This document shows, piece after piece, positions 36,901 to 55,029 of a stretch of DNA of 64,000 bases (positions are counted from its first letter, which is position 1; each line of letters starts with the position of its first letter). This DNA comes from Paenibacillus sp. UNC499MF (GTDB lineage Bacteria > Bacillota > Bacilli > Paenibacillales > NBRC-103111). The notes under the pieces are model-generated. The model was not told where the DNA came from. It did no database searches and worked only from the letters and a program-made list of their open reading frames with translations. The stretch is taken from contig NZ_FNVF01000006.1 in assembly GCF_900107975.1 (NCBI RefSeq), forward strand, positions 124,001-188,000, read 5' to 3'. The position numbers were made by a program, and so were the translations under genes.

Positions 36901-38900
36901 ATCAGGTCAAAATCCGCGGCTACCGGATTGAGTTGGGAGAAATCGAAGCAAGACTTTTGAACAGGGATGAAATTAAAGAAACGATTGTATTGGACCGGAC
37001 AGACGCAAACGGACAGAAATATTTGTGCGCGTATCTGGTATGCACGGACGGTGCGGAACTGACGGTTTCCGAGCTTCGCGTCGGGCTTGCCGAAAGACTA
37101 CCGGATTATATGATTCCCGCCCAATTCGTTTTCCTGGATGCGATGCCGCTCACAAGCAACGGCAAAATCAACCGCAGAGCCCTCCCTGAACCGGACGGTT
37201 CGGTAAGGATGACGGCCGATTACGTTCAGCCGGAAACGGAAATGGAACATACGCTGGCCGAGATATGGCAGGACGTGCTTGGAATCAAAAAAATCGGCAT
37301 ACGCGACAACTTCTTCGAGCTGGGCGGCGATTCGATCAAAGCCTTGCAGATTGCCGCGCGATTGAACGCCAGAGGGCTCAAAATGGAGCTGCGGGATTTG
37401 TTCCGTCACCCGCAGATCGAGCAGGTGGTTCCTTATATCCAGGCTGTACAGCGGACCATTCACCAAGGAATAGTCCAAGGAAAGACGGAGCTTGCTCCTA
37501 TTCAGCGGAGATTTTTCGAACGTCACCAAACGGACCTCCATCACTACAACCAGGCCGTTATGCTGAAAAGCAAAGAGCGTTTGAAAGAAGACCTGCTCCG
37601 CCGAGTTTTGGATAAATTGACGCTGCATCACGATGCGCTCCGCACCGTATTTCGCCAGTCGCAGGATGGCGGCGTTACAGCTGAAACGCGGGACTGGAAA
37701 GAGGGAGAGGTGTACGAGCTGCACGCCTATGATCTGACTCTCGCGCCGGAACCTGCTCTGGAAATCGGTCCGATTGCAGACAGCCTGCAAAGCGGATTCG
37801 CGCTGGACCACGGTCCGCTTATGAAGCTTGCTCTGTTCCGCACCGCGGAAAACGATCATTTGCTGATTGTGATCCATCATTTGGTTGTGGACGGAGTTTC
37901 CTGGAGAATCCTGATGGAAGATCTGGAGGATGCGTACGCAATAGCATTGGATGGCCGTACCGTTTCTCTTCCGGCCAAAACCGATTCCTACCGAGAATGG
38001 GCTTCTCGGCTGACGGAATATGCGAACAGCAGCCGCGCTCAAACGGAACTAAGCTATTGGTCGGCTATTCGTTCTCAAATGCCCGATTCGCTCCCATCCG
38101 ATTATGAGGCAGTATCGGATAAAGTCGAAGACGGCAGGGACATTGAGATCGAACTAGACCGCGACAACACGGAAAAGCTGCTGAAACACGCGCAGCAAGC
38201 TTACAACACCGAAATCAACGATCTGCTTCTTACGGCTTTGGGGCTGTCCTTCCGCGAATGGAGCGGACTATCCCGAATTGCCGTCAGCATCGAGGGTCAC
38301 GGGCGCGAAGAAATTCTAAAGGATGTGGATGTATCCCGTACCGTCGGCTGGTTTACCGTCATGTATCCGTTCGTGCTTGATGTGAGCAGTCCCGATGATA
38401 TGGGGCATCAAATTAAGCTGGTAAAAGACGGGCTGCGCCGTGTTCCGAACAAAGGAATCGGCTACGGCATCCTCCGCTATTTGACCGAAGAGATCGATCA
38501 CGGAGAGCTTCCTTTCGCTTTTGAAGAACCTCAGATCAGTTTCAATTATTTGGGGCAATTTGACGGAGACAATGACGGCGGAGCACGATTCGATCAGTCT
38601 ACCTTCCCGTCGGGCAACGAAATCAGCGGCGGCAGCGAGAGAACGTTCGCGTTTGATATCAACGGGCAGGTCTCGGACGGAGTCCTACGTCTAACCTTTA
38701 ACTATAACCGTCATCAGTACCGGGCCGAAACGGTCGAAAAGCTGGCCGACGGATTCAAGAGCCACCTTCTGGAACTGATTCGCCACTGCTGCGGGAAAGA
38801 GACCGCCGAGCAGAGTCCGACCGACTTCACTTACCAGAACCTGTCCATCGGACAGTTCGAGAATATGGCGGCCCAACTGGCCGGCAAGCTTAAACTATAA
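30936..38900 (+). CDS. NRPS with Dab (or Orn) and D-Ser modules
   Basis: This 2654-residue synthetase has the order C-A-PCP-C-A-PCP-E. The first C (LTPLQEGMLFHAL; HHIIMDGWC, His145) has the look of a DCL domain. The first A domain code is D-V-G-E-I-S-S-I-D-K, which matches published Dab codes and is one residue from the Orn code; its PCP Ser is 1043. The second C is LCL-like (HHIITDG, His1263) and carries a low-complexity insert near 1182-1226. The second A domain code D-V-W-H-F-S-L-I-D-K is a Ser code; its PCP Ser is 2133. The final E domain is intact (HHLVVDGVSW, His2315; EGHGRE). It should therefore add L-Dab then D-Ser. It starts 23 bases after the previous gene behind an AGGGGG-rich site. 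Confidence 0.9.
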   Translation: MSKGLEIEKMSHLTPLQEGMLFHALMNPESHAYLEQVRLSIRGDLDVQALERSFGLLVKRHEPLRSNMYHKNVAKPRQIVFKDREASVVFEDLAGLRDGERDAKLESFIQADKNRPFDISKELLVRLTVLRTGSQEYTLLFTFHHIIMDGWCIGIVLEELLNYYEAERNGREATLSEVRPYSSYVQWLQKQDQAAASDYWRGLLEGLEEPSGLPGNSVTPAGRGYLLSERKFTVGADTARQLRSIAESSGATVSSLFLAAWSLILGRYNRSEDVVFGTVVSGRPPEIEGIERMVGLFINTVPVRIPLLPDSTFTGLVKEVQRQTVQSRGYDYYSLAEIQAQSALKQELIGHIVVFENYPLQELIGQGDLEKRLGFAITEADLAEQTPYDFNIEVEDGDVLNVTLSYNGYTYGEVEILRIQGHLETVLGQASSQSEKRVSEFTLLSEPERQELTEVWSGFSASYPVGTFHELFEAQAAQTPDKTAVVYEETSLTYRELNERANVLAHVLRRQGVKPDSLAAVLLERSADMVTAVLAIQKAGGAYIPIDPTYPEERIAYMLRDSGARVLLTQAALTGLLHGADYPGRVLDIQSLLEAAEKNGFIKALKPGAGEFTGSGEGTNWFSGLNPEEAVSNLETVNKPDDLAYVIYTSGTTGNAKGVMIEHRHYVNTAFGYRYGYRLREFDVKLLQIASFSFDVFAGDLARTFVNGGTMVICPQEVRIDPSALAGYLENHRITVFESTPALILPLMEHVHEQGTDISALKLLITSSDSCSVHDYGTLLERFAGSTRIMNSYGVTEAAIDSSFYEEAADKLPESGNVPIGRPLGNHRFYIVDSALRPVPAGVAGELCIGGDSVARGYLNRPELTAEKFVPSPFAGGGRLYRTGDLARWMQNGSVDFIGRIDYQVKIRGYRIEPGEIESALLKLEGVVQAVVTDRTDSSGHKYLCAYVAGDADEAWLRKKLAAELPGYMVPAHIVRLDSLPLTPNGKIDRKALPAPSGDPAPVSAYAAPRTLTEAQLAELWQEVLGVKTVGIDDSFFELGGHSLKAVLLIGRIAKQFSVEVPLREVFAHPTVRGLAPLIAGAEESAYADIEPVGEKDCHPVSPAQKRLLIIDRLGDAESAYNMCAALEMTGPLDRERLEEAFRTMVVRHESLRTSFAVIDGEPVQRIHQPEALDFRVSYRELDSNGHHEARAEAATASAGSHMAEADAVTDGSQDGANQPDSVLESLIRPFIRPFNLEEAPLLRAELIKLEEGRHLLLADMHHIITDGISIEVFVEEFSRLYAGETLPPLRIQYKDFASWQNGQITGGAAEKQAGYWKDLFGGGEDVPVLDMPADYIRPAIKSFEGDSLTYEIGSELTAELHRMCARTGTTLYMVLLAAFNTLLHRYTGQEDIVVGSPVAGRPHPDLETMMGMFVNTLPMRNFPSADKSFSNFLKEVKDGALHAYENQDIPFEEVVERLQLRRDVSRNPLFDVMFVLQNTGMNQFRFNEVTFRPVEFEMGIAKFDLTLSVEEFPDRLGLSFEYAIKLFKRDTIEKLSRHFLNILEAVVRNPDVNLADIELLTEEERHTIISQFNDTKAAFPENKTIHGWIEEQAAEDPDRIAVVFGDNRLTYGELDERANRLARTLRAKGARPDGVIAILTERSAEMMIGLLAILKAGSAYLPIDPAHPRDRVGFMLEDSGARTVLTASKWAGQLPAGYECILLDEEKSYHEDFSALSPEGAAGPGNLAYVIYTSGTTGNPKGVMIEHRALVNRIHWMQKRYPIGRDDVILQKTPYSFDVSVWELFWWGTQGARVVFLAPGGEKEPRLIVEEIKRSRVTTLHFVPSMLSVFLDHIEQNGQEEDLDSLRYVFASGEALQAQHANRFDRLIGTPGGVILANLYGPTEATIDVTYFDCPPGQLLEQVPIGKPIDNTELFIVDAKHRIQPVGVPGELCLAGTGLARGYLNRPELTAEKFVPIPHRPEAKMYKTGDLARWLPDGSVEYIGRIDHQVKIRGYRIELGEIEARLLNRDEIKETIVLDRTDANGQKYLCAYLVCTDGAELTVSELRVGLAERLPDYMIPAQFVFLDAMPLTSNGKINRRALPEPDGSVRMTADYVQPETEMEHTLAEIWQDVLGIKKIGIRDNFFELGGDSIKALQIAARLNARGLKMELRDLFRHPQIEQVVPYIQAVQRTIHQGIVQGKTELAPIQRRFFERHQTDLHHYNQAVMLKSKERLKEDLLRRVLDKLTLHHDALRTVFRQSQDGGVTAETRDWKEGEVYELHAYDLTLAPEPALEIGPIADSLQSGFALDHGPLMKLALFRTAENDHLLIVIHHLVVDGVSWRILMEDLEDAYAIALDGRTVSLPAKTDSYREWASRLTEYANSSRAQTELSYWSAIRSQMPDSLPSDYEAVSDKVEDGRDIEIELDRDNTEKLLKHAQQAYNTEINDLLLTALGLSFREWSGLSRIAVSIEGHGREEILKDVDVSRTVGWFTVMYPFVLDVSSPDDMGHQIKLVKDGLRRVPNKGIGYGILRYLTEEIDHGELPFAFEEPQISFNYLGQFDGDNDGGARFDQSTFPSGNEISGGSERTFAFDINGQVSDGVLRLTFNYNRHQYRAETVEKLADGFKSHLLELIRHCCGKETAEQSPTDFTYQNLSIGQFENMAAQLAGKLKL

Positions 38901-38994: not shown

Positions 38995-41900
38995 GTGTCT
39001 CAAGTGAAGATTAAGGATATTTATCCGCTGTCCCCGATGCAGGAAGGCATGCTGTATCATTCCATGCTGGATCGGGATTCACAAGCTTATTTTCAGCAAA
39101 ATATCATTACCGTCGGAGAAGTATTGGATCGTGAGCTGGTTCAGCGCAGCCTGCAGCTGCTTATAGAGAGATACGATATTTTCCGCACGGTGTTCGTATA
39201 TAAAGAAACGGAGCGGCCCCTTCAAGTCGTGCTTCAGGAAAGGGAGGCGCCTGCGGTCTACACGGAGGACGTTTCCGGCCTGAGCGAGGCTCTTAAGACG
39301 GATGCGCTTGAAAAGTTTACCGGAACTGACAGGACGAACGTTTTTGATCTGGAAAAGGATGTGCCCCTTCGTCTGGCTTTGTTCAAATGGAGCGAAAACA
39401 CATGCAAACTGGTATGGAGTTTTCCGCATATCGTAATGGACGGCTGGTGCCTCGGCATCGTGGCCAACGACTTTTTCGGTCTCTACACGTCGCTTAGGGA
39501 CGGAACCCGCGCCAATCTGGAACCGGTGTACCCGTTCAGCAGCTTCATTCAATGGCTGGAAAATCAGAACCGGGAAGAAGCCTCGGCTTACTGGAACAAG
39601 TATCTGGACGGACTGGAAAACGAAACGGCGGTTCCGGGATTCAGCCGGACTAACGGGAGATCCGCTTTCCGGCTCGAACATCATTCATTGAAGCTCGACG
39701 CCGCACTTACGCAAAAGATGGAACTGATCGCAAAACGTCACCAGGTTACAGTAAGCACCGTTTTCCAGACCGTTTGGGGCGTGCTTCTTCAAGCCTATAA
39801 CAACAGCACGGATGTCGTATTCGGCACTGTCGTCTCGGGCAGGCCCGAAGAGATTAAAGGTATTGAGAACATGGTAGGACTGTTCATCAATACGATTCCT
39901 TTCCGGGTCAGCGGAGAGAAGAACGAAAGTTTCGCCGCATTATTGAGCCGTGTGCAGAGCGGCTGGATGGAGTCCAATGCGTATTCTTATCTTTCGCTCG
40001 CGGACATCCAGACGCAGTCTCCGTTAAAACATAATCTGATCCGGCACCTTGTTGTGTTCGAAAATTATCCCATATCCGAAGAACTTATCGGAAACGGGGA
40101 TGAAGCCGGAGAAAGCCGGCGTCCGGATGGAGAACGAGGCCAAAAAAGCCTCCGGATCACGGAAGTGGACGGCTTCGAACAAACGAACTACGAGCTTACG
40201 CTGACGGTGATACCGGGCCGCGAGCTCGAAATCAAATTCAGCTTCAATGCGGAGAGTGTTGAACAGGCGGGAATCCGCGCGATTGCCGGGCATCTCTACG
40301 AGGTGCTGGGGCAGATCACGGAAACGCCTGAGATGACGCTGGGGGCAATAGAGCTGCTCACGGATGAAGAACGCGGCCTGCTGCGCGCTTTTAACGACAC
40401 TGACGCATCCTATCCCGCCGAAAAAACGATGCACGGCTGGTTCGAACTCCAGGCGGCCATGACACCGGAAAAAATCGCCGTCATCTTCGGCGAGAAGCGT
40501 CTTACGTACCGTGAACTCAACGTGCGCGCCAATCGTCTTGCCCGGCAGCTGCGCTTAAAGGGTGTAGAGCCGGATAAGGTAGTCGGTATCCTTTGTGAGC
40601 GGTCTATCGAGATGATGATCGGGCTGCTGGCCATTTTAAAAGCTGGCGGGGCTTATCTGCCGATCGATCCCGCGCATCCGCAGGATAGAATCGATTATAT
40701 GCTTGCCGACAGCGGGGCTGTTCTGGTGCTTGCGCAGCAGCATCTGACGGATCGCTCACCGGCTGGTATAGAGACTGTCAAGCTCGATGCGGAAAACCTT
40801 CTGACGGGCGACGGAAGCAATCTGTCTCGCGGATCGGGACCGGAACAGCTTGCTTATGTTATCTATACGTCCGGCACGACCGGAAATCCGAAGGGGGTCA
40901 TGATCGAGCACCACGCCCTAATCAACCGCCTTCACTGGATGCAGAAACGTTATCCGTTGGACGAAAAAGACGTTATTTTACAGAAAACGCCGTACAGCTT
41001 TGACGTATCCGTTTGGGAGCTGTTCTGGTGGGGAGCTTACGGGGCGAAGGTGGTATTTCTGGAACCGGGCGCGGAGAAAGACCCGGCGCAGATTGCCAAA
41101 GCCATTGATAAGTACAAAGTAACGACCATGCATTTTGTGCCTTCCATGTTGTCCGTTTTTCTCGATCATGCGGAGAGCCGGATAGAGCCGGGTGCATTGT
41201 CCAGCTTGCGTTATGTGTTCGCCAGCGGCGAAGCGCTCAATCCTCAGCAGGCCAACCGGTTTAATTCGCTTTTTTACCGGACCAACGGCTCACGGCTGAT
41301 CAATTTGTACGGACCGACGGAAGCGACCATCGATGTTTCCTATTTTGACTGCTCCTTCGGAGAAAATGCGCTGGACCGCGTTCCGATCGGCAAACCGATC
41401 GATAACATCCGGCTCTACATTACGGATGATGCGGGCCGCCTTCAGCCTGTGGGAGTTGCGGGTGAGCTTTGTATCGCAGGTACGGGTCTGGCCAGAGGAT
41501 ATTTGAACCGGCCCGAGCTGACGGCTGAAAAATTTGCGTCAGTTGATTTCGACCCATCCGGACGCATCTACAAAACGGGTGATCTGGCACGCTGGCTGCC
41601 GGACGGCAATATCGAATATCTCGGACGTCTGGATCACCAGGTCAAAATCCGCGGCTACCGGATTGAGCTTGGCGAGATCGAAGCGGCTTTGCTCGGGCAT
41701 CCGATGGTCAAAGAAGCGCTCGTTATGGACCGGACCGACAGCCAGGGACAGAAGGTGCTGTGCGCCTATCTCGTATGCGGCCCTGATCCTGCCCCGGAAA
41801 CGGATCTTCTGCGGGAGGCGCTTGCAGCAAAACTTCCGGGGTATATGATTCCTTCTTATTTCGTATTCCTGCCGGAAATGCCTCTTACATCCAATGGCAA

Positions 41901-44900
41901 AGTGAATCGCAGGGCGCTTCCCGAGCCCGACAAGGCTTGGGATGAAAACGGATATATTGCGCCCGAAGGAGAGACCGAGGAAGTGCTTGCCGCCATCTGG
42001 CAGGATGTGCTTGGAGTGGAGCGCATCGGAGCCGGCGATTCGTTTTTTGACCGGGGCGGGCACTCTCTGAAAGCGGCTTTGCTTGTATCCAAAATACATC
42101 AGCGGCTGCAAATCGATTTACCGCTGCGTCAAGTGTTCGAGTCGCCTACGATCCGTTCGATGGCCGAAGCGATCCGTAAAGAAGCCTTCTCGGCTCACCA
42201 AGCTATCGAGCCTGCCGAACCGCAAACCGTGTATCCGGTCACATCGGCACAAAAGAGATTAATGGTTCTGGATCAGCTGGAACAAGAGAGCACCGCTTAC
42301 CATATCCCGCATGTGCTTATCAGCCGGGTTCCATTGGAACGCGGACGACTGCAGAGCGTTTTTGAGAACATGAGCGCCCGTCACGAATCTCTCCGTACTT
42401 CCTTTGAACGAATTGAAGCCGATGTTGTTCAACGGATTCATCCGAAAGCTGCTTTCAAGATAGAAGAAATTACTTTGTCGGTAGTGGGCCAAGAATCTTT
42501 AAGCGATCTTGACGAAAGCACGCAGACCGAGGAGAAAGGCGGAATCGGGGAACTCCCGGCGGGGTCAGGGTTAGCGGATATTTTGAAATCCGCTGTAGAA
42601 ATGACGACGATTCATAAGGCGGGTGTGTACGGAACCGGCAGCCAACCTGAGGAACCGGCTATCGTGCAGGACCTTCTTACACCGACCGAGAAAGAGGCGC
42701 TAGACCGGGTTATCGAAGGCTTTATTCGTCCCTTTAACCTTGCGGAGGTTCCGCTCATTCGGGTGGGAGCGGCCGATTTAGCCTGCGGGGGCACCGCACT
42801 TTTAATCGACATGCATCATATTATAGCCGACGGTGTTTCCATGGCGGTCATTGCGAATGAATTTAACCGGCTTTATGCGGGAGAAGAGCTGCCCCCTCTC
42901 AAAATCCAATACAAGGATTACGCTGTTTGGCAGCAAAAACGAAACGCAAGTGGCGTTTTGGACGCCCAGGAAGCTTATTGGGCGGATAAGCTGAGCGGCG
43001 AGCTGCCTGTCCTGAACTTTCCGAACGATTTTACACGGCCTCCGCTTCAGAGCTTCGAGGGAGACCGATATATTTTCACACTCGGATCAGGCGAAGTCGA
43101 GGCGCTTAAGCAAACGGCATCCCGTGCCGGTGCGACGTTGTATATGATTTTGCTCGCTTCATTCAATACGCTGCTGCATCGCTACACGGGACAAGAGGAT
43201 GTTATAGTCGGAACTCCAGTCGCAGGCAGGACGCACGCGGATCTGCAGCCCCTTATCGGGATGTTCGTCAATACCCTTCCGATGAGAAGCTTTCCTGCCG
43301 GGGACAAAACGTTCAGCCGGCTGCTTGAAGAGGTCAAGCAAACGGCGCTTGGAGGGTTTCAGAACCAGGAGATACCTCTTGAGTCGATTTTGGACAAGTT
43401 GTCACTCAAACGTGATTTAAGCCGCAATCCCTTATTTGACACGATGCTTATTTTTCAAAATCTCGGTATCGAAGAGATCGGCCAGCAGGGGGAACTGTTC
43501 CAGGCTTATGATTTCGGACATGACGTATCCAAGCTGGATCTCACCCTTCAAGCGGAAGAAAACGAGAACGGCGGCATCGATTTTCAGATAGAGTTTGCAA
43601 CGAGCTTGTTCAGAAAAGAAACGATCCGGCGGCTTGCGGGCCATTATCTCCGCATATTGGAAGCGGCCGTCCGCAATCCTGACATCAAACTGTCCGAGAT
43701 AGATATGCTGGAAGAACGGGAACACCGCATGCTGGTGGAGACTTTTAACAATACGGCCGCAGCATTCGCCGACGACAAAACGATCCACCAACAGTTTGAA
43801 GAGCAGGCAGCCCTCACTCCGGACGCCCCCGCCTTGTTGTACGGCGATCAGGTATTCAGTTACCGGGAACTGAACGAAAAGGCAAACTCGCTGGCGCGCA
43901 CGTTACAAAGCCACGGGATCGGACCCGACCGGCTCGTCGGGCTACTAACGGATCGCTCTCCGTCCATGATGATCGGCCTTTTGGCCGTATTGAAAGCGGG
44001 CGGTGCCTATGTGCCGATTGACCCGGATTATCCGGCGGCTCGTGTTGCCTACATGCTGGAAGACAGTCAAGCCCGTGTTCTTCTCACCGAGGGCACACTG
44101 GCCAAAGATCTGCAGGGTTATGTGGACACCGTTATCTCTCTTGACAGGGAAGAAGTTTACGGAAGCGAGAGCGGCAACCTGGGGATCACCAGTGAACCTT
44201 GCCATCTTGCTTACGTCATTTACACGTCGGGCTCGACCGGAAATCCGAAGGGGGTTATGCTCCAGCACCGTTCCGTTTCCAACTTTTTTACCGGAATGCG
44301 GGAGAAAATCGATTTTGTCCCAGGACGTAAAATTTTGGCTTTAACGACGGTGTCTTTCGATATCTTCGTGTTGGAAACGCTGCTTCCGCTGTCCTGCGGG
44401 ATGAGCGTCGTACTGGCGGAAACGCTGCATCAGACGGAACCGGCAGCGCTCAGCGGCCTAATTGCCGGACAGGGCATCGATACGCTGCAAATCACGCCTT
44501 CGCGCCTTCAAATGCTGCTTGGCAGTCCGGAAGGTGCTTCCAGCCTCCGGCATGTCCGTACTATTCTCGTCGGCGGCGAGGCTATGCCGGCTGCGCTTCT
44601 GCGTTCGCTTCAGGAATTCCCGGAATTGAACATTTTCAACATGTACGGACCGACGGAAACAACAGTGTGGTCTGCCGTGCAGAATTTGACAAACGCCGAC
44701 TCCATCAATATCGGCAGACCTATCGCAAACACGCAGATTTACATCGTCGACGCCGGAGGCGGGCTGCAGCCTGCAGGAGTCCCGGGCGAGCTCTGCATAG
44801 CAGGCGAAGGACTGGCGCGCGGGTACTGGAACAGGCCTGATCTGACGGCCGAGAAATTTGTTCCCTGCCCGTTCGGCAAGGGTGGAGGACGGATGTACAA

Positions 44901-45570
44901 GACAGGCGATCTTGCCCGGTGGCTTCCGGACGGCAGTCTTGAGTTCCTTGGACGTTTGGATCACCAGGTCAAGGTCAGAGGATATCGTATTGAACTGGGC
45001 GAGATCGAGAGTGCTCTCGTTCGTCATGAAGCTGTCGAAGAAGCGGTCGTCCTGGCCAAGGAGGACGCTGCAGGCGGACATACGTTGACGGGGTACCTTG
45101 TTGTAAAAACGGAGATTCCGGCAGCGGAAATTCGTACCTTCCTCGGACAAAGTCTGCCGGATTACATGATTCCGGCCGCATTCGCCCAGCTTGAGAAGTT
45201 TCCTTTGACGCCGAACGGGAAAACGGACCGAAAAGCGCTGCTGGGCCTGGATGCCGTGCAAACTTCCGCAGCCGTTTATGCTGCTCCGTCAGACGAGATC
45301 GAAGAGCAGCTAGCTGTCATGTGGGCCGATATTCTTGGTGCTGAACGAGTGGGAGTAAACGATAATTTCTTCGAATTGGGCGGACACTCGCTCAAAGCGT
45401 CTCTATTCGTTGCCCGGGTACGTGAACAATGGGGAATCGAGCTGGAGCTGCGTCAGTTGTTCCGGCAACCGACTATCGCGGAGATTGCGGAGCATATCCG
45501 GCTGGAGCTGGAAGAATTACGCAGGCTGGAAGAAATCTTACGGGAAATCGAAGCGCTGGAGCAGGTGTGA
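38995..45570 (+). CDS. NRPS with Ser and Gly modules
   Basis: This 2191-residue synthetase has the order C-A-PCP-C-A-PCP. It starts at GTG 38995 behind AAGGAGAG. The first C (IYPLSPMQEGMLYHSM; PHIVMDGWC with catalytic His145 kept and the first His replaced by Pro) is DCL-like, as expected after the D-Ser module. The first A code is D-V-W-H-F-S-L-I-D-K, Ser; PCP Ser1024. The second C is LCL-like (HHIIADG, His1275) with a long low-complexity insert near 1163-1235. The second A code D-I-L-Q-L-G-M-V-W-K indicates Gly; PCP Ser2132. It ends in a Glu/Leu-rich helix (LEELRRLEEILREIEALEQ) that may dock to the next synthetase. No E or thioesterase domain is present. Confidence 0.9.
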   Translation: MSQVKIKDIYPLSPMQEGMLYHSMLDRDSQAYFQQNIITVGEVLDRELVQRSLQLLIERYDIFRTVFVYKETERPLQVVLQEREAPAVYTEDVSGLSEALKTDALEKFTGTDRTNVFDLEKDVPLRLALFKWSENTCKLVWSFPHIVMDGWCLGIVANDFFGLYTSLRDGTRANLEPVYPFSSFIQWLENQNREEASAYWNKYLDGLENETAVPGFSRTNGRSAFRLEHHSLKLDAALTQKMELIAKRHQVTVSTVFQTVWGVLLQAYNNSTDVVFGTVVSGRPEEIKGIENMVGLFINTIPFRVSGEKNESFAALLSRVQSGWMESNAYSYLSLADIQTQSPLKHNLIRHLVVFENYPISEELIGNGDEAGESRRPDGERGQKSLRITEVDGFEQTNYELTLTVIPGRELEIKFSFNAESVEQAGIRAIAGHLYEVLGQITETPEMTLGAIELLTDEERGLLRAFNDTDASYPAEKTMHGWFELQAAMTPEKIAVIFGEKRLTYRELNVRANRLARQLRLKGVEPDKVVGILCERSIEMMIGLLAILKAGGAYLPIDPAHPQDRIDYMLADSGAVLVLAQQHLTDRSPAGIETVKLDAENLLTGDGSNLSRGSGPEQLAYVIYTSGTTGNPKGVMIEHHALINRLHWMQKRYPLDEKDVILQKTPYSFDVSVWELFWWGAYGAKVVFLEPGAEKDPAQIAKAIDKYKVTTMHFVPSMLSVFLDHAESRIEPGALSSLRYVFASGEALNPQQANRFNSLFYRTNGSRLINLYGPTEATIDVSYFDCSFGENALDRVPIGKPIDNIRLYITDDAGRLQPVGVAGELCIAGTGLARGYLNRPELTAEKFASVDFDPSGRIYKTGDLARWLPDGNIEYLGRLDHQVKIRGYRIELGEIEAALLGHPMVKEALVMDRTDSQGQKVLCAYLVCGPDPAPETDLLREALAAKLPGYMIPSYFVFLPEMPLTSNGKVNRRALPEPDKAWDENGYIAPEGETEEVLAAIWQDVLGVERIGAGDSFFDRGGHSLKAALLVSKIHQRLQIDLPLRQVFESPTIRSMAEAIRKEAFSAHQAIEPAEPQTVYPVTSAQKRLMVLDQLEQESTAYHIPHVLISRVPLERGRLQSVFENMSARHESLRTSFERIEADVVQRIHPKAAFKIEEITLSVVGQESLSDLDESTQTEEKGGIGELPAGSGLADILKSAVEMTTIHKAGVYGTGSQPEEPAIVQDLLTPTEKEALDRVIEGFIRPFNLAEVPLIRVGAADLACGGTALLIDMHHIIADGVSMAVIANEFNRLYAGEELPPLKIQYKDYAVWQQKRNASGVLDAQEAYWADKLSGELPVLNFPNDFTRPPLQSFEGDRYIFTLGSGEVEALKQTASRAGATLYMILLASFNTLLHRYTGQEDVIVGTPVAGRTHADLQPLIGMFVNTLPMRSFPAGDKTFSRLLEEVKQTALGGFQNQEIPLESILDKLSLKRDLSRNPLFDTMLIFQNLGIEEIGQQGELFQAYDFGHDVSKLDLTLQAEENENGGIDFQIEFATSLFRKETIRRLAGHYLRILEAAVRNPDIKLSEIDMLEEREHRMLVETFNNTAAAFADDKTIHQQFEEQAALTPDAPALLYGDQVFSYRELNEKANSLARTLQSHGIGPDRLVGLLTDRSPSMMIGLLAVLKAGGAYVPIDPDYPAARVAYMLEDSQARVLLTEGTLAKDLQGYVDTVISLDREEVYGSESGNLGITSEPCHLAYVIYTSGSTGNPKGVMLQHRSVSNFFTGMREKIDFVPGRKILALTTVSFDIFVLETLLPLSCGMSVVLAETLHQTEPAALSGLIAGQGIDTLQITPSRLQMLLGSPEGASSLRHVRTILVGGEAMPAALLRSLQEFPELNIFNMYGPTETTVWSAVQNLTNADSINIGRPIANTQIYIVDAGGGLQPAGVPGELCIAGEGLARGYWNRPDLTAEKFVPCPFGKGGGRMYKTGDLARWLPDGSLEFLGRLDHQVKVRGYRIELGEIESALVRHEAVEEAVVLAKEDAAGGHTLTGYLVVKTEIPAAEIRTFLGQSLPDYMIPAAFAQLEKFPLTPNGKTDRKALLGLDAVQTSAAVYAAPSDEIEEQLAVMWADILGAERVGVNDNFFELGGHSLKASLFVARVREQWGIELELRQLFRQPTIAEIAEHIRLELEELRRLEEILREIEALEQV

Positions 45571-45601: not shown

Positions 45602-48600
45602 GTGCGCCAAGTGGATTTATCAAAGCGAATAGCGAGTCTATCGCCGGAAAAACGCAAACTTCTGGAAGCAAGGCTCGCTCAGGAAGGATTGTCCGCGTCC
45701 CGTCCCGCGGGAGTCGGGACAGGCTCGTCGGCCGGGCTGCGGCCTCTGGAAAAAAAGGACGCTTATCCCGTATCGGCCAGCCAGAAAAGATTGCTCCTGA
45801 TCCAAGAAATCGGAGATACGGCGGCCGCCTACAATATGCCTTTCGTCCTGCTTGTTTCAGGATCGGTACAAGCCGAAAAGATTCAAAAAGCGTTTCAGGC
45901 GCTGATTTCCAGGCATGAGACGCTGCGAACCTCTTTCCGGAAGACGGACGGAGAATACGAACAAATCATCCATGAACCGGACAAGATCGTCTTTAAGCTG
46001 GACTATTCCGAAGAAACGGTTTTAAACGTGGAAGAAGAGAGAAACGTCATCGACAGATGCGTTTCCTCTTTTGTCCGGCCGTTTGATGTGAGCCGGGCAC
46101 CGCTGTTCAGAGCGGCCTTGATCCGATTGGCTCCGGAGCGCCATCTTTTGATGACGGATATGCATCACGCTGTCTCGGACGGCCTGTCGCTGCAAATTTT
46201 AGCAGAAGAATTTAACCGGATTTATCGTGGAGAAAGTCTGCCTGAACTGGCTGTTCATTACAAGGAATACGCCAATTGGCAGCAGGAGAGGATTCGTGAC
46301 GGCGTGTTCCTCAAACAGGAGCAGTACTGGCTGAACGTGTTTAAAGACGAAATTCCCGTCCTGAACATGCCCGCCGATTATCCGAGACCGCAGTTGCAGA
46401 GCTTCGAAGGGGAACGCTGCGAGTTCCAAACGGAGCGGGGGCTTGCGGAAAAGCTTCGCCGTCTGGCCTCGGAATCGGGTTCCACGCTCTATATGGTACT
46501 GCTTGCGGCTTATTACGTTCTGCTTCATAAATATACGGACCAGGAAGACATCATCATCGGAACTCCGGTCGGGGGCAGGACTCACACTCAGCTTCAGCCG
46601 CTTATCGGAATGTTTGTGAATACGCTGGCTATCCGCCAGTCACCTGCCGGATCCAAAACGTTCCTTTCTTTCTTGAACGAAGTTAAGGAAGGAACTCTGG
46701 GGGCTTTTGACCATGAGGAATATCCTCTCGAAAGTCTGCTTGAAAAGCTTGGTCTCCGCAGGGATGTCAGCCGTAATCCGTTGTTCGATACGGTTTTTAC
46801 TTTACAGAATAAAGCTTCCCGGTCTATGGAAATGGACGGACTGCTCCTGGAGCCTTATGAGGCGCAGTCAAAGGTATCTAAGTTTGATCTTTCGCTTCTG
46901 GCGGAGGAGGGCGAGGAGCTGACGTTCACTTTCGAGTATGCGACCAAGTTGTATGCAAAGCAGACCGTCGAGCGGTTAGCCGGCCATTATTTGCAGATTC
47001 TCCGGGAAATTGCCGGAGATAAGGACTTACAGCTATCCCAAATCGGTATGTTGTCCGCAGAAGAGAGAAGGCTGCTTCTCGAAGAACTGAACGACACGGC
47101 CGCACCATACGACCGGCAGGCTACGATACACGGCTTGTTTGAGGAGCAGGTGGAGAAACATCCCGGCCATATCGCCGTTTCATTTGAAGACAGGCGGTAT
47201 ACTTACAGCGAGCTGAATGCACGTTCCAACCGGCTTGCCGCCGCTCTGCAGGAGCTGGGTGTGGGACCGGATACCGTAGTCGCCATTATGCCCGAACGCT
47301 CTCCCGAAATGGTGATCGGAATTCTTGCCATCCTAAAAGCGGGTGGAGCCTATTTACCGGTTGATCCCGAATACCCGCAGGAAAGAATTTCGTATATGCT
47401 CGAGGACAGCGGAACCCGGATTTTGCTTACGCACCGGCATCTTATGGGCAGTACGGAATTTACCGGGCATACGGTCTTTATGGAGGATGAGAAGTGGTAT
47501 ACGGGAAATGAGACAAATCCGTGTGTGCCGGTTACATCAGATCACCTCGCTTATTTGATCTACACATCGGGAACGACAGGCAAGCCTAAAGGCGTCATGA
47601 TTGAGCACCGGGGTATGGCCAACATGAAGCTGTTTTACGAGGATACACTGGGACTGAGTCCCGAGGATCGCATAGTGCAGTTCGCCAGTTTTTCGTTCGA
47701 CGCTTCCGTCTGGGAAATGTATATGGCGCTCTTCATGGGCGGTGGACTGTACATGGCCTCGAAAGAGAAGCTGGTTCAACTGGATTTATTTGAAGCGTTT
47801 GTCCGGGAGAACGGAATAACGCTTGCCATGCTCCCGCCCACTTTTGCTGTTTATCTGGATCCGGTACGTTTGCCGTCCTTGCGGATACTGATTACGGGCG
47901 GTTCCGAATCTTCACCTGAGCTTGTCCGTAGATGGAGCCCGCATGTGGATTATTTTAATGCTTACGGTCCTACGGAAGCGACGATTTGCGCGACTGTATG
48001 GGAAGCTAAGCGGGGGACGGCCGTGGAAAGTCATCGGACGATTCCGATCGGCAAGCCGTTGTACAATACGCAGATTTATCTTGTAAATGCGGATTTGCAG
48101 CTTGTGCCTCAAGGAACGGCCGGGGAGCTTTGCATCGGCGGAGAAGCTTTATCGCGCGGCTATTTGCATCGTGAAACTCTCACCGGGGAAAAATTCGTAC
48201 CGAATCCTTTCGCACCCGGACGAAAAATGTACCGTACGGGAGATCTTGCCAGATGGCTGCCTGACGGCAATTTGGAATATTTAGGCCGTATCGATCATCA
48301 GGTCAAAATCCGGGGCTACCGGATCGAGTTGGGTGAAATCGAAACACGCTTGCTGCTGCACGGCCGTGTCCGGGAGACGATTGTGCTCGTTCACGAAATC
48401 TCGTCGGAAAAAACGTTGTGCGCCTATTACACTTTCGAAGGGGAATCTCCGGCAGCCTCGGAGCTCCGCGAACATATGGCGTCGGGTCTGCCCTCTTACA
48501 TGGTGCCGGCGCATTTTATCCCGCTTAAGGAGTTTCCCTTGACGCCTAACGGCAAGATCGACAGAAAAGCGCTTCAAGCGCCCGATCCGGCATCCAGTGC

Positions 48601-51600
48601 TTCCGATGAATATACCGCACCGCAAACCGAGACGGAAGTGCGTCTGGCTGCTCTGTGGGAGGAGGTGCTTAACGCGGATCGTGTAAGCCTTCACGATAAT
48701 TTTTTCGAACGGGGCGGGCATTCCCTGAAAGCGGCACTTCTTCTCGCGAAAATCTCGAAGGAATTCGGTGTGGAGCTTTCTCTGCGAAAAATATTCGAAG
48801 CCCAAACGCTTCAAGCACAAGCAGCGGCAATCAACGCAAGTGCCGGAACGGAGGCGGCATTTAAACCGATCCAGAGGGCACCCGACAAACCTTGGTATCC
48901 GGTATCCCCGGCCCAGCGCAGACTGCTCGTCGTACAGGAAATCTCGGGAGCCGCAACAGCCTACAATGTTCCTTTGATTCTTGAGGTAAAAGGATCGCTT
49001 AATCTGGAGCGGGTCAATGAAGCTTTCCGTAAACTAATTGGCAGGCACGAAGCGCTTCGCACTTCTTTTACCCGAATTCACGAGGAATATGTGCAGGTCA
49101 TTCATGATCCGTCACAAATCGCATTTCAGTTAGACGTTACGCAGCTTGCCGAATTGTCCGCAGATTGGACGGACGACCAACGAGAAATGTATATAGAGAC
49201 AATTGCAGACGGTTTTATCCGTCCGTTCGACTTGGGATCGGCTCCTCTTCTGCGTGTGGGTCTTGTAAAGACAGAAACTGAGCGTCACTTGCTCTTGATC
49301 GATATGCATCATCTTATAACAGACGGAGCTTCTCTTGAACAAATGACAGAGGAGTTTATACGGCTCTACCGAGGAGAGGAACTAGGGGAGCTTTCCGTCC
49401 AGTACAAAGATTACACGATGTGGCAGAATCAGTTATCGGTGGACGGCACCGTGGCCCGACAGGAAAATTTTTGGCTCAATACGTTTAGCGGTGAAATTCC
49501 CGTTCTGAACATGCCGTTGGATTATGCGCGTCCCCAGCTCCAGAGCTTTGAAGGAGCCGTTTACACTTTCGAGGCGGATCACGAGCTTACATGGCAGCTG
49601 CATCAAATCGTTTCGCGTCATGGAGCGACTCTTTTCATGATCCTGCTTGCCTCTTATAACGTGCTGCTTGCCCGGTATTCCGGACAGGATGATCTGATTA
49701 TCGGAACTCCCGTTGCCGGAAGGCCTCATGCGGATTTGGAAGATGTGCTGGGCATGTTCGTGAACACTCTTCCTCTGCGTAACTATCCGGTAGGTTCGAA
49801 AACGTTCGCGGCTTTCCTCGATGAGGTGAAGCAGAACGCCCTGCAGGCGTTTGAAAATCAACTGGTACCGCTGGAGGACCTGATTTTGAAGCTTCAGCTG
49901 CGCCGGGATGTCAGCCGTAACCCATTGTTCGATACCGTTTTTGTTTTGCAAAATACGGAATCCCGTGAAATGGAAACACGAGACGTCGCTTTTGCTCCGG
50001 TTGAGCATCACAGCGGAATTTCCAAGTTCGATCTGACTCTAACCGCACAGGAAACGGGAAGTCCGGAAGGTCCTCGTCTGTCTTTCAGCTTGGAATACGC
50101 GACAAAACTGTATAAAGAAGACACGGTACGCAAATTTGCCGATCATTTCATACAGCTATTGAAGCAAATTTCCAAGAGTCCCGAGGTGAAACTGTCGGAC
50201 ATCGATTTATTAACCGCCCGTGAGCGGAGCTTGATTCTTGAACAATTCAATGCGACGAAGACTGAGTATCCGAGGAACGCTGCCGTACACGAATTGTTTG
50301 AAGAACAGGCAGCGCTGAGGCCCGATGAAGCGGCTGTTCTTTTTGAAGATCAGGAGATCACCTATGCCGAGCTTAACCGGAAAGCCAACAGGCTTGCCTG
50401 GAGGCTGAAGGAAAACGGTGTCGGCCGGGACACGCTGGTCGGAATTATGGCCGAACGGTCACCCGAAATGATTGTGGGGATACTTGCCATTCTCAAAGCG
50501 GGCGGTGCCTTCCTGCCTATCGATCCTTCGTATCCGGAAGACCGGATCGCATACATGCTGGAAGACAGTGCGGCGAATATAATGCTTGCGGGTGATCGGG
50601 AATCTGCCCAAAGCATTATGGGCGGCTTCAAAGGGACCGTGTTAGGCTTAGGGGACCCTTTCGTGTATACCGGCTCAGAAAACAATATACCGGGAACAGC
50701 GGACGCGGATTCTCTCGCTTATGTCATGTACACTTCGGGTTCGACCGGGCAGCCCAAAGGGGTGATGATTGAGCATCGAAGCGTTGTCCGCCTTGTCAAA
50801 AACACCAACTTTGTCACGTTCGGACCGTCGGACCGGATACTGCTCACGGGAGCGCTTGTGTTCGATGCCTGCACGTTTGAAATCTGGGGCGCTTTGCTTA
50901 ACGGGCTTCAGCTGTGCATTGTGCCGGAATCCGTGTTCCTTCATGCCGGAAAGCTGGAGGAAGCTTTGCGGACGTATAGAATTACGACGATGTGGTTGAC
51001 TTCGCCACTTTTCAACCAGTTGGCTTTAACGAATCCGGCTTTGTTTGCAACGCTTCGTTATCTGCTCGTAGGCGGGGATGTGCTGTCGCCGACCATGATC
51101 GGTACCGTGAGAGATGCTTGTCCACAGCTTACGATAATAAACGGCTACGGTCCGACGGAAAATACGACGTTCTCCTGCTGCTTCCCCATTGACCGGGAAT
51201 ACTCAAACATTCCGATCGGCCGGCCAATCGCGAATTCAACCGTCTATGTGGTGGATGCGTCGGACAGGCTGCTGCCAGTCGGTCTTCAGGGAGAAATTTG
51301 CGTCGGCGGTGACGGTCTGGCCAGGGGCTATCTGAATCGCGAGGATCTGACCCGAGAAAAATTCGTTCCGAATCCTTTCCGGACCGGTGAAACAATGTAC
51401 AGGACCGGGGATTTGGGACGCTGGCTGCCGGACGGCAGCATCGAATATTTAGGTCGGATGGATCAGCAGGTGAAAATCCGGGGCTACCGGATCGAGCCGG
51501 GTGAAATCGAGACCTGCCTGCTTGGGCACGAATCGGTGCAAGAGGCGTTCGTCACCGTTAAGGAATCCGCAGAGGGTCAGAAGTACCTTTGCGCATATAT

Positions 51601-53731
51601 CGGAACTAGCGAATACCTCACGCCAGCCGAGTTGAAGGCGTACTTGAGCGGACGTATCCCCGATTATATGCTTCCTTCCAACTATGTGTTCCTGCAGGCT
51701 CTGCCGCTTACGAAAAACGGCAAAATAGACCGCCGTGCACTTCCGGAGCCGGAGCAGGACAGTCTTTCCTCATCGCCGTATGCTCCTCCAAGAAATACGA
51801 AGGAGAAGCTATTGACAGGTGTATGGGAAAGCGTGCTCGGTGTGGAAAGAGTCGGACTCGACGATAATTTCTTTGAACTCGGTGGACATTCCCTTAAAGC
51901 TATCCAGCTTATATCAAAAGCTCAGGAGCTGGGTCTGGAAATAGGGATGCACCAGTTGTTTCAGGTCCAGACGATTCGCGGCCTTTCGGAGCTTCTTCCT
52001 GCCTTAAAGGAGATTGAAGATGCGAGCCCGGAATTTTCCGATAAATACTCAGTCCATTCCGGGGACAATACCGGCGTTAAGACTATCGAGGAGGCAGAGA
52101 CGCTTCTACACGAAAAATTCGGTTCCCGATTCAAGTTAAAAACTGACAAGATCGAGGACAAACAGTTGGTGGTACTGGAGCTTGCCAATGATTATGAGAA
52201 ACGGCTTCCCGAGATTAAGGAATTTATCCGCCGTGGCTTCCATACGGATCTTCATCCTCATTTCATCGTATCAGAGGACGCTCCTGAACATGCTCCTGAA
52301 CATGCGGAAGGGGATGAGAATGCAACGAAGGACAAAGGAGAGGCAGGACAAAGACTGTCACCAGAAGCGAATACTTTTACGGAAGCGGACCTTCAAGATA
52401 AACGGGTACAACTTCTGAAAAGGATATTATCCGCCAATGAAGCTTGGGAAACCGCCTTAAGACAGCTGCCGACTGTAGAGCGGTATCCACTAGCGCCGAT
52501 CCAGGAGTATCACTTGGCTTATCCCGAAGCATCGGGAACACTCCTTTCTTTTAACGAATTACTCGATATGCAGAAGTTAAATGCAGCCCTGGATCGTGTG
52601 ATCGGCAAGCATGATCTGTTGAGAAGCCAGCTCGTATCGGCAGGAAAAACGTGGGAGTGGGAGCTGAAAGAAAAGACTAAGGGATTCGTTCTTCCCGTTG
52701 TTGATTTGTCGGCATACACGCCTTCTGAGCAGCAGCAAATCTTGTCAGGTTTGATGAAGGAGCTTTATTACAGCCCATATGAACTGGAAAGCGGCGCCTC
52801 ACTATACCGGTTTGCTCTAATTTCGCTCAACTTGCGGGAGCATTATCTGCTGCTGCCGTGCTCGCACATCATTTTTGACGGCATGAGCAGCGAAATTCTG
52901 AGATCTGACGTGCTGGCGTTTTACAATGCGGATAATGAACTACGCTCAGAGTCCGATCAAAACAAGACAAAGCAATCGTACCGCAGTTATGTTCGTCAAG
53001 TCCGGAATGGTCCGGCTGATATCGGAGATAGCGCGATTAGCGAACAGTTCCGGCTTGAAGCTTTTCATAAGCAAACGTCGGTGATCGGTGAAGCCTTACA
53101 GGGAAAAAACCGTTCCAAAGCGACAAAGTTTATGCACGAGATGAACTTTGAAGGACAGGCCGTGGAAGCGGAACTATCTGTGCTCATGTGGCAAACGGCT
53201 CTAGACCTTGCGCAACAGGTTTTCTCTCGATATTTCGGTTTAAAAGAAGTGCCGGTCTGGCTTACGAATTACGGCAGAAATTATGCGGGAAGCCATTATT
53301 ACGACACGGTCGGCGAATTCATCGATCAAATTCCAATCCTGCTTGATGGTACTTTCGATGAAGAAGAGAAAGGTGTACAAAATCTTCTCCAAAAGGCTTC
53401 GACGCATAATCTGAACTTTTTTAATTTGATTTATAACCGGCAAACGGCGGAGATGTACCCGCTTTCCGGCTATTATTTACAGCATAGTCTCCAACATTTT
53501 CCGATCGTCGTGAATTATCTTGGGGAAACAAGTAAGGAAGGGGAGCTTCTCCAAGAGTTGGACGATCCGGACATTTTTTCGTCGGAAGTTCGGCCTGTCA
53601 TTTACTTTACCGTACAGCATACAGACAAACATTTGCATATTTCTCTCCTGCTGCCTTATGAGGAAGACGAAGAAACGATCAGCCGCATGTTTGAGCCCGC
53701 GATTCCATCCTTCCAGACCATCAAGCAGTAA
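45602..53731 (+). CDS. Terminal NRPS with Phe-like and Val modules and a C-terminal condensation-like domain
   Basis: This 2709-residue synthetase has the order C-A-PCP-C-A-PCP-linker-C*. Both internal C domains are LCL-like (HHAVSDG, His189; HHLITDG, His1237). The first A code D-A-W-M-I-G-A-I-C-K resembles Phe codes; PCP Ser1041. The second code D-A-F-W-L-G-G-T-F-K is a Val code (Ile possible); PCP Ser2097. After the last PCP comes a charged linker of about 190 residues with an APEH duplication, then a divergent C-like domain (2294-2705). No thioesterase GxSxG is present. The N-terminal 50 residues contain a helix (SLSPEKRKLLEARLAQEG) suited to docking. GTG 45602 is very close to AGGAGAGGG (45592-45600); GTG 45611 is better spaced and may be the real start. 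Confidence 0.9.
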   Translation: MRQVDLSKRIASLSPEKRKLLEARLAQEGLSASRPAGVGTGSSAGLRPLEKKDAYPVSASQKRLLLIQEIGDTAAAYNMPFVLLVSGSVQAEKIQKAFQALISRHETLRTSFRKTDGEYEQIIHEPDKIVFKLDYSEETVLNVEEERNVIDRCVSSFVRPFDVSRAPLFRAALIRLAPERHLLMTDMHHAVSDGLSLQILAEEFNRIYRGESLPELAVHYKEYANWQQERIRDGVFLKQEQYWLNVFKDEIPVLNMPADYPRPQLQSFEGERCEFQTERGLAEKLRRLASESGSTLYMVLLAAYYVLLHKYTDQEDIIIGTPVGGRTHTQLQPLIGMFVNTLAIRQSPAGSKTFLSFLNEVKEGTLGAFDHEEYPLESLLEKLGLRRDVSRNPLFDTVFTLQNKASRSMEMDGLLLEPYEAQSKVSKFDLSLLAEEGEELTFTFEYATKLYAKQTVERLAGHYLQILREIAGDKDLQLSQIGMLSAEERRLLLEELNDTAAPYDRQATIHGLFEEQVEKHPGHIAVSFEDRRYTYSELNARSNRLAAALQELGVGPDTVVAIMPERSPEMVIGILAILKAGGAYLPVDPEYPQERISYMLEDSGTRILLTHRHLMGSTEFTGHTVFMEDEKWYTGNETNPCVPVTSDHLAYLIYTSGTTGKPKGVMIEHRGMANMKLFYEDTLGLSPEDRIVQFASFSFDASVWEMYMALFMGGGLYMASKEKLVQLDLFEAFVRENGITLAMLPPTFAVYLDPVRLPSLRILITGGSESSPELVRRWSPHVDYFNAYGPTEATICATVWEAKRGTAVESHRTIPIGKPLYNTQIYLVNADLQLVPQGTAGELCIGGEALSRGYLHRETLTGEKFVPNPFAPGRKMYRTGDLARWLPDGNLEYLGRIDHQVKIRGYRIELGEIETRLLLHGRVRETIVLVHEISSEKTLCAYYTFEGESPAASELREHMASGLPSYMVPAHFIPLKEFPLTPNGKIDRKALQAPDPASSASDEYTAPQTETEVRLAALWEEVLNADRVSLHDNFFERGGHSLKAALLLAKISKEFGVELSLRKIFEAQTLQAQAAAINASAGTEAAFKPIQRAPDKPWYPVSPAQRRLLVVQEISGAATAYNVPLILEVKGSLNLERVNEAFRKLIGRHEALRTSFTRIHEEYVQVIHDPSQIAFQLDVTQLAELSADWTDDQREMYIETIADGFIRPFDLGSAPLLRVGLVKTETERHLLLIDMHHLITDGASLEQMTEEFIRLYRGEELGELSVQYKDYTMWQNQLSVDGTVARQENFWLNTFSGEIPVLNMPLDYARPQLQSFEGAVYTFEADHELTWQLHQIVSRHGATLFMILLASYNVLLARYSGQDDLIIGTPVAGRPHADLEDVLGMFVNTLPLRNYPVGSKTFAAFLDEVKQNALQAFENQLVPLEDLILKLQLRRDVSRNPLFDTVFVLQNTESREMETRDVAFAPVEHHSGISKFDLTLTAQETGSPEGPRLSFSLEYATKLYKEDTVRKFADHFIQLLKQISKSPEVKLSDIDLLTARERSLILEQFNATKTEYPRNAAVHELFEEQAALRPDEAAVLFEDQEITYAELNRKANRLAWRLKENGVGRDTLVGIMAERSPEMIVGILAILKAGGAFLPIDPSYPEDRIAYMLEDSAANIMLAGDRESAQSIMGGFKGTVLGLGDPFVYTGSENNIPGTADADSLAYVMYTSGSTGQPKGVMIEHRSVVRLVKNTNFVTFGPSDRILLTGALVFDACTFEIWGALLNGLQLCIVPESVFLHAGKLEEALRTYRITTMWLTSPLFNQLALTNPALFATLRYLLVGGDVLSPTMIGTVRDACPQLTIINGYGPTENTTFSCCFPIDREYSNIPIGRPIANSTVYVVDASDRLLPVGLQGEICVGGDGLARGYLNREDLTREKFVPNPFRTGETMYRTGDLGRWLPDGSIEYLGRMDQQVKIRGYRIEPGEIETCLLGHESVQEAFVTVKESAEGQKYLCAYIGTSEYLTPAELKAYLSGRIPDYMLPSNYVFLQALPLTKNGKIDRRALPEPEQDSLSSSPYAPPRNTKEKLLTGVWESVLGVERVGLDDNFFELGGHSLKAIQLISKAQELGLEIGMHQLFQVQTIRGLSELLPALKEIEDASPEFSDKYSVHSGDNTGVKTIEEAETLLHEKFGSRFKLKTDKIEDKQLVVLELANDYEKRLPEIKEFIRRGFHTDLHPHFIVSEDAPEHAPEHAEGDENATKDKGEAGQRLSPEANTFTEADLQDKRVQLLKRILSANEAWETALRQLPTVERYPLAPIQEYHLAYPEASGTLLSFNELLDMQKLNAALDRVIGKHDLLRSQLVSAGKTWEWELKEKTKGFVLPVVDLSAYTPSEQQQILSGLMKELYYSPYELESGASLYRFALISLNLREHYLLLPCSHIIFDGMSSEILRSDVLAFYNADNELRSESDQNKTKQSYRSYVRQVRNGPADIGDSAISEQFRLEAFHKQTSVIGEALQGKNRSKATKFMHEMNFEGQAVEAELSVLMWQTALDLAQQVFSRYFGLKEVPVWLTNYGRNYAGSHYYDTVGEFIDQIPILLDGTFDEEEKGVQNLLQKASTHNLNFFNLIYNRQTAEMYPLSGYYLQHSLQHFPIVVNYLGETSKEGELLQELDDPDIFSSEVRPVIYFTVQHTDKHLHISLLLPYEEDEETISRMFEPAIPSFQTIKQ
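52481..53728 (+). other. Terminal condensation-like domain in place of a thioesterase
   Basis: The domain starts with YPLAPIQEYHLAYPEASG, a C1-like motif, and has CSHIIFDGMSSEI, an HHxxxDG variant that keeps the second (catalytic) His2422, Asp and Gly. Later segments (VGEFIDQIPILLD; HFPIVVNYLG) fit the C-domain fold. It follows the last PCP and ends the protein, a position normally held by a thioesterase. Confidence 0.8.
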
Positions 53732-53742
53732 GGAGTTGAAAT

Positions 53743-55029
53743 ATGATGTCTTTATTTAAAAACAGTTTGTTTGTCCGCTTTTATTTGTCCAGAACCTCGG
53801 CCAACATCGCGGACAGCATTTATTCCATCGTTTTGCTGTATTTCGTCCAGAAATCGACGGCTTCCGTTTCGTTCACCAGCTTTACATTTACCGCTATTTC
53901 GGCGGCTTCCATTTTTAGCTTTCTGCTGGGGCCGCTGGTTGACCGGTATTCTCCGTCGCTGCTGGCGAGCATCTCCTTATTTGTTCAGGCCGTGTTAATT
54001 TTGGCGGTGCCGTTCCTAATCACTGACGGGGGCGCCAATTTGCTGGCGATACTTGTTCTTGTGTTCGTTGCATCCTGCTTCTCCATGTTATTCTATCCGG
54101 CCAACAATAAGATGCTTCCACAGTTGATCAAGTCACCTGACCGAATCGTTAAAGCAAATGCTATGATCTCGTCCACGGATCAATTGATTAACGTGGCGGG
54201 ATACTTGGTCGGAGCCTCTATAATTTTGCTTCTGGGCATGAAAAATACATTTTATCTGGCTAGCGGAATGCTCTTTCTTTCGGGACTTATCTATATGCAG
54301 CTTAAGAAGCAGATGGAGCCGGGGGAGACCTCTGGAAGCGCACCAAGGGGGCCGCTGAAGATCAGAGAGTACTCGAACGAGCTTGTAGAAGGTTACCGGT
54401 TTGTCGCGAGCAGCCCGTTTCTCAGAATTATGCTGCCGTTCTTTGCACTAACCAACTTTTCCATGTCGATTCTCATCATTACCGTTCCATCCATGTCGGT
54501 CTCATACGGATCGCCGATTTACTACAGCCTGCTGTATGTTGCCTTCTTCGTCGGTATATTCGTAGGGTCCGCTTTGATTAACGTGCTTAGAAAAAACGGA
54601 CTGATGATCGCTGTATCCTGGCTGCTTATGGGGGCTTCGCTGTATCTGTTCGCGATCGTTCCCGCGCTGTGGATGAAGCTTTCCGCGATCCTTCTGATGG
54701 GCATATTTACAGGTATTATTAACGTGCTGCAGACTTCGCTCATCCAGATTATCACTCCTTCAGAGTTGATGGGCCGTGTAATGGCTTTCCTTCATACGTT
54801 GTCCAACGCGGCATTACCGCTTGGGGCTTTTATCGGGGGCATTCTTGCCTTGCGTTTCGAGCTGGAAAGTGTTTTATTCATAAGTGCCCTGGTCATAGTC
54901 GCATGTGGAGTTCTGCTGCTGGCGTTAAAAGCGGTTAGGACATTCCAGATTCCTTCGGAAATTGCGGGCAAAGAAAAAACGGAAGATGACCTTGCCGGTA
55001 AAGGTGCGGTTGCTAAAGAATTTCTATAA
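53743..55029 (+). CDS. MFS transporter, probable lipopeptide exporter
   Basis: This 428-residue protein has about twelve hydrophobic segments and the MFS_3 look of EntS-type exporters, with a shortened motif A region (LLGPLVDRYSPSLL) after helix 2 and LYVAFFVGIFVGSALINVL in the second half. It starts 11 bases after the last synthetase gene behind AAGGAG, so it belongs to the operon and is the obvious candidate for export of the finished lipopeptide across the cell membrane. A second ATG follows directly and could also be used. A terminator closes the operon 32 bases after its stop. Confidence 0.85.
   Translation: MMSLFKNSLFVRFYLSRTSANIADSIYSIVLLYFVQKSTASVSFTSFTFTAISAASIFSFLLGPLVDRYSPSLLASISLFVQAVLILAVPFLITDGGANLLAILVLVFVASCFSMLFYPANNKMLPQLIKSPDRIVKANAMISSTDQLINVAGYLVGASIILLLGMKNTFYLASGMLFLSGLIYMQLKKQMEPGETSGSAPRGPLKIREYSNELVEGYRFVASSPFLRIMLPFFALTNFSMSILIITVPSMSVSYGSPIYYSLLYVAFFVGIFVGSALINVLRKNGLMIAVSWLLMGASLYLFAIVPALWMKLSAILLMGIFTGIINVLQTSLIQIITPSELMGRVMAFLHTLSNAALPLGAFIGGILALRFELESVLFISALVIVACGVLLLALKAVRTFQIPSEIAGKEKTEDDLAGKGAVAKEFL

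Follow-up and report, generated by a model that had tools for sequence, protein, structure and literature searches.

The peptide assembly line encoded at positions 14744-55029 of the window (the whole stretch of 64,000 nucleotides of Paenibacillus sp. UNC499MF DNA analyzed here) ends in a terminal condensation-like domain, hereafter Ct, and carries no fused thioesterase (TE). Ct belongs to a bacterial clade of terminal condensation (C) domains that probably release the finished chain by macrolactamization, with the β-amino group of the fatty acid starter as the nucleophile.

Organization of the assembly line

The cluster encodes a four-protein NRPS line that starts with a β-amino fatty acid (Table 1), and the iturin-type starter FAAL-ACP-KS-ACP-AMT is present in NRPS1. 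The FabD-type transferase presumably serves the KS as a trans-AT. The A-domain codes were extracted by alignment to GrsA, the code of which (DAWTIAAIC) came out correctly. In order, they correspond to Gly, Dab, Ser, Ser, Gly, DAWMIGAIC, and Val, the assignment of residues to codes being background knowledge. Judging by its code, the DAWMIGAIC module probably selects an aromatic residue.

Two features of NRPS1 deserve a description. The C domain that follows the AMT is separated from its PCP by a truncated A domain, reduced to its C-terminal part (25693-26130), as is the case in nearly all relatives. The epimerization (E) domain of module 1 (E1, 29479-30816) is probably dead, as HRLITDD replaces the HHxxxDG motif; epimerization by E1 is in any case moot, since module 1 loads Gly. 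For comparison, the motif of the first E domain of paenilipoheptin was reported as DPxxxD.

A GxSxG-type TE motif was sought in the four NRPS proteins and none was found, nor did Pfam detect a thioesterase in NRPS4. The preliminary description of this DNA had placed a C-like domain at position 52481, after the PCP of a Val module, with the motif SHIIFDG, His2422 as the catalytic residue, and no fused TE. These details were all borne out, the motif starting at residue 2421 of the protein.

Table 1 Features of the lipopeptide cluster in the window
Feature	Position	Strand	Description
Dab transaminase (diaminobutyrate-2-oxoglutarate; Dab supply)	14744..16132	+	NCBIfam NF006733, TIGR02407
Free-standing type II thioesterase	16129..16911, ATG at 16192	+	GYSMG; PF00975 (5e-40)
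FabD-type malonyl transferase	16926..18155	+	TIGR00128 (1.4e-83)
NRPS1	18166..30912	+	FAAL-ACP-KS-ACP-AMT-C-(A remnant)-PCP-C-A(Gly)-PCP-E; E motif inactive
AMT domain	23083..24285	+	Pfam Aminotran_3 (1.6e-51); expected to install the fatty-acid β-amino group, the proposed nucleophile
NRPS2	30936..38900	+	C-A(Dab)-PCP-C-A(Ser)-PCP-E
NRPS3	38995..45570	+	C-A(Ser)-PCP-C-A(Gly)-PCP
NRPS4	45602..53731	+	2709 aa; C-A(DAWMIGAIC)-PCP-C-A(Val)-PCP-[linker]-Ct
Module 7 A domain	50297..51784	+	Val-type code DAFWLGGTF
Module 7 PCP	51800..52003	+	GGHS; proposed chain donor to Ct
PCP-Ct linker	52004..52480	+	About 155 aa; conserved segment of ~65 aa ending in LHPHYI or similar
Ct, terminal condensation-like domain	52481..53731	+	aa 2294-2709 of NRPS4; catalytic His codon 52865-52867
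SHIIFDG motif	52862..52882	+	Starts at aa 2421; SHxxxDx14Y with Tyr148 of the domain
MFS exporter	53743..55029	+	Directly 3' of Ct; no component of the line beyond Ct

The sole Pfam match of Ct (translated from 52481-53728) was Condensation (E 4e-22), with a score against PF00668 of 78.9 bits for a cut-off of 30.6; all 36 aligned Ct domains also match this profile. The AlphaFold model (pLDDT 85) has the full fold of the C superfamily, with Z scores of 24-28 to C and E structures, and the C-like fold expected after the Val PCP is thereby confirmed. Structure prediction, which had been proposed as a check, upheld the fold and did not tell a cyclase from other functions. Indeed, C, E, Cy, X, and starter domains scored nearly equal in a fold search with the model, so this search says nothing on the function of Ct, and C, E, and release domains were not separated from one another by fold comparison. 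A bacterial entry named 'HtmB2-CT' (8z0r) ranked 42nd in Foldseek, and a literature search on 8z0r as a release domain found no paper. With a complete fold and homologs in dozens of genomes, Ct is more than a chance occurrence. The linker that precedes it evolves fast (dN/dS 0.31-0.43), and its conserved segment is possibly a remnant of the C-terminal subdomain of an A domain, as a weak hhalign match (probability 4%) would suggest.

A clade of bacterial terminal C domains

Homologs of Ct were searched for at four taxonomic levels, from a small genus through family and order to class. Within the order, 54 of 395 genomes had them, as did one genus of another family, and the clade occurs in Paenibacillales and Brevibacillus; the named records of the nearest set are P. 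chitinolyticus NBRC 15660 and Paenibacillus sp. HGH0039. A scan of the phylum, with a sparse draw of 249 genomes and a strict threshold (E 1e-45), revealed no Ct outside Paenibacillales. The 40-60 kb around many of the matches were annotated with domain models built from the window. In 42 of 42 places, Ct was the last NRPS domain, with at most 17 residues beyond it.

The placement of the domain in a phylogeny had been suggested as a test of whether Ct belongs to an inactive or an E-type clade. A maximum-likelihood tree was built from 91 domains, and the 35 Ct rows in it all fell on one side of a branch (UFBoot/SH-aLRT 100/100) that excludes the LCL, DCL, post-AMT, starter, and E domains. Ct thus clusters with neither E nor elongation C domains and, as noted for the window, no A-PCP follows it.

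The catalytic residues His129 and Asp133, which are the second His and the Asp of HHxxxDG, are kept in 42/42 Ct domains. The Ser of the SHxxxD motif is found in 27 of the 31 main-clade Ct domains and is missing from the divergent ones. At the column of the catalytic Glu of E domains (EGHGR), Thr occupies 24 of the 31 main-clade sequences and Glu none of the Ct sequences, whereas 72 of 77 E domains have Glu. Three residues that C and E domains seldom or never have at the same columns, Asp282, Gly177, and Pro258, are invariant in Ct; the Asp282 column shows Asn in most C domains and Ser or Thr in most E domains. Glu279 is kept in 29/31 main-clade sequences.

Ct co-occurs with a β-amino fatty acid start

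The lines ending in a main-clade Ct start with FAAL-ACP-KS-AMT, i.e., with a β-amino fatty acid. Among the 395 genomes, an AMT was found upstream of 36 of the 42 main-clade Ct domains, on the same strand and within 70 kb. By genome, 35 have both Ct and AMT, none has Ct only, 39 have AMT only, and 321 have neither (Fisher p 1e-29, relatedness being ignored). This association is partly due to common descent. The wide differences in number and kind of amino acids among the Ct lines speak against their being mere copies of one cluster.

Six main-clade Ct domains lack a nearby AMT: two are at contig ends, two belong to split lines (genomes G219 and G338), and two are in genome G317. The first synthetase of G219 (C1 2755896 / 3041531) and G338 (C1 2760969 / 3129961) is encoded in two halves, FAAL-KS-AMT and NRPS, which are separated by about 285-370 kb and lie on opposite strands, as though an inversion had broken the gene. 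In G317 (C1:4243000-4282999, L069-L070), neighboring NRPS genes encode proteins of 10773 and 2963 aa, both of which end in Ct and neither of which belongs to a line with an AMT start; the nucleophile is therefore not always a β-amine. Conversely, eight AMT lines with no main-clade Ct were examined. Their end could be read in five cases, three with a divergent Ct and two with a terminal DCL-type C domain, and a fused TE was found in none.

Paenilipoheptin-type lines end in Ct

The paenilipoheptin synthetase PhnC/D/E of Paenibacillus polymyxa E681 and Brevibacillus sp. DP1.3A resembles the window line in its FAAL-KS-AMT start, its seven amino acids, and the lack of a fused TE, and differs from it in the amino acids and the gene split. 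Two of the Ct lines (G002 and G671a) match paenilipoheptin in module order, E-domain pattern, and codes (Ser-x-Trp-Val-Phe-Tyr-Glu in G002), and both end in a Ct that is 42-43% identical to that of the window. A partial third line of this type (G760) ends in Phe-Tyr-Glu-Ct. The end of the Ct gene of G671a (~4,341,530) coincides with that of the phn-like region 15 of DP1.3A (4,341,529-4,380,935; PMC9867215), and by this coordinate match the G671 line is the published paenilipoheptin-type line of Brevibacillus sp. DP1.3A.

PhnE has no TE in either of the two known phn clusters (PMC9867215), and the cyclization of paenilipoheptin was ascribed to a free-standing, unidentified TE (Vater et al. 2018, as cited in PMC9867215). 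In the published accounts of paenilipoheptin that we found, the terminal domain went unrecognized. More generally, no account of this bacterial clade was found in the openly readable literature searched. Paenilipoheptin A has been synthesized and is a macrolactam, in which an amide joins the last residue to the β-amino group (PMC11959586).

Proposed ring closure by Ct

The observed anatomy, clade, conservation, and AMT co-occurrence of Ct, together with the lack of a fused TE, are the grounds on which we infer catalysis by Ct, its nucleophile, and the window product. The simplest reading is ring closure by Ct, because the paenilipoheptin-type lines examined end in this domain, paenilipoheptin A is a β-amine macrolactam, and most Ct clusters have no TE nearby. 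The lipoheptapeptide would be tethered to the last PCP of NRPS4 through a thioester bond. With C domains as the model, the peptidyl-PCP would enter the donor side of Ct, while the N-terminal amine of the same chain would take the role of the acceptor. The 3-amino fatty acyl N-terminus, made by the FAAL-KS-AMT part of NRPS1, would fold back into the active site, where His2422 would assist the attack of the β-amino group on the Val thioester. The predicted product is cyclo(β-NH2-FA-Gly-Dab-D-Ser-Ser-Gly-X-Val), in which X is probably aromatic and the Ser of the third module is in the D form. The free-standing TE would then be an editing (type II) enzyme.

If this is true, it answers a published open point, namely how TE-less lipopeptides of the paenilipoheptin type are cyclized, and cyclic products can be predicted for a few dozen uncharacterized clusters of Paenibacillus and Brevibacillus. 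The analysis also describes a bacterial terminal-C clade where a data-mining study reported CT subtypes from fungi only (PMC10212144), and a stand-alone macrolactam-forming domain could be of use in NRPS engineering.

Fungal CT domains such as TqaA are the nearest functional analog of Ct. They also are the last domain after a PCP in the absence of a TE, have SH in place of HH in their motif (SHxxxD; PMC6518819), and are proposed to form an intramolecular amide. At the sequence level, TqaA matched Ct only weakly (E 0.2) and was not among the profile matches at E 0.01; the tree held no full fungal CT.

Iturin, mycosubtilin, and bacillomycin synthetases combine a β-amino fatty acid starter and a heptapeptide macrolactam product with a fused C-terminal TE, in the place of which the window line has Ct. 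Bacillomycin D, for instance, is a β-amino fatty acid heptapeptide macrolactam (PMC11546977).

Ct might also be bifunctional, inverting the last residue before cyclizing the chain, in which case the window line would close through D-Val. This would explain the D-Glu7 at the closing position of paenilipoheptin A (PMC11959601), given that the last module of its synthetase lacks an E domain. Candidates for the inversion chemistry would then be two acidic residues specific to Ct, Asp282 and Glu279. An inverting Ct is possible, gains no support from an E-type catalytic Glu, and seems to us rather unlikely.

Other routes of release

The free-standing TE, which the preliminary description had offered as an alternative and which is real, could instead cyclize and release the chain, Ct serving as a non-catalytic platform. 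The window cluster shares a type II TE with its two nearest relatives, and between sister species this TE is more strongly conserved (92-93% identity) than is Ct (74-75%). However, there is no TE gene in 16 of the 21 Ct neighborhoods scanned (40-85 kb); in G671, the genome matching DP1.3A, more than 200 kb separate Ct from the closest match to PF00975, and the single match of genome G118 is about 650 kb away. Ct, for its part, keeps its catalytic residues throughout. The free TE was therefore rejected as a general cyclase, being absent near most Ct clusters, and we consider this route improbable.

Release by Ct through another acyl transfer, to the Dab side chain, to a free amine (a polyamine, for example), or to water, has precedents. 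In bacteria, terminal C domains that use other acceptors have been described, those of glidonin biosynthesis attaching putrescine (PMC10587159). In fungi, the terminal C domain of IvoA hydrolyzes a D-aminoacyl thioester (PMC11546977). Like Ct, the termination C domain of glidonin and the VibH-like amide synthases are bacterial C domains that release a peptide by forming an amide; the former differs from Ct in using a free diamine as its acceptor and in its setting, an incomplete C-A*-T-TE module. Both a Dab module and a Dab transaminase are encoded in the window, and the Dab side chain had been put forward along with the β-amino group as a possible nucleophile. Yet a Dab-type code is absent from at least eight Ct lines (G290, G118, G055, G363, G080, G244, G219, and G319), and Dab was rejected as a general nucleophile for this reason. 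The β-amino group, in contrast, is favored by the association of Ct with AMT and by the paenilipoheptin macrolactam, made by a type of line that ends in Ct. The only known product type is a β-amine macrolactam, and transfer to another acceptor would leave the AMT co-occurrence unexplained; such a transfer thus appears to have little likelihood.

Among the points against the proposed ring closure by Ct, purifying selection on it is weaker, and this cluster, unlike most, has a free TE. Ct is constrained, though less than other catalytic domains, dN/dS between sister species being 0.22-0.25 for Ct, 0.08-0.16 for C domains, and 0.18 for the inactive E1. The catalytic His has been lost in 13 of the 77 E domains of Ct-bearing lines, E1 of the window among them; loss is therefore possible where the function is not needed. 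That Ct is a degenerate epimerization or condensation domain with no catalytic role, as its dN/dS (the highest among the structured domains compared and close to that of E1) and an E-like NxxG near its C-terminus (Asn345, Gly348) might suggest, is highly improbable, an E-type or decayed domain being rejected on account of the separate clade outside E, the missing E-domain Glu, and the invariant His and Asp, which the broken-motif E domains of the same lines did not retain.

Other lines ending in C domains

A further group of AMT-started lines (L140-L141 in G166 and L146-L147 in G149) ends in a terminal DCL-type C domain placed directly after an E domain, and further PKS genes follow it in G166. 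This is a second, separate case of a line ended by a C domain. In addition, most of the matching g71 (Brevibacillus) genomes encode a C-A-PCP-Ct protein of 1575 aa (L079 in G607, L097 in G671, and similar). In the two examined, it has a Phe-type code and is encoded downstream of a FAAL-KS-AMT-Dab-x synthetase, with which it apparently forms an unnamed short lipopeptide line.
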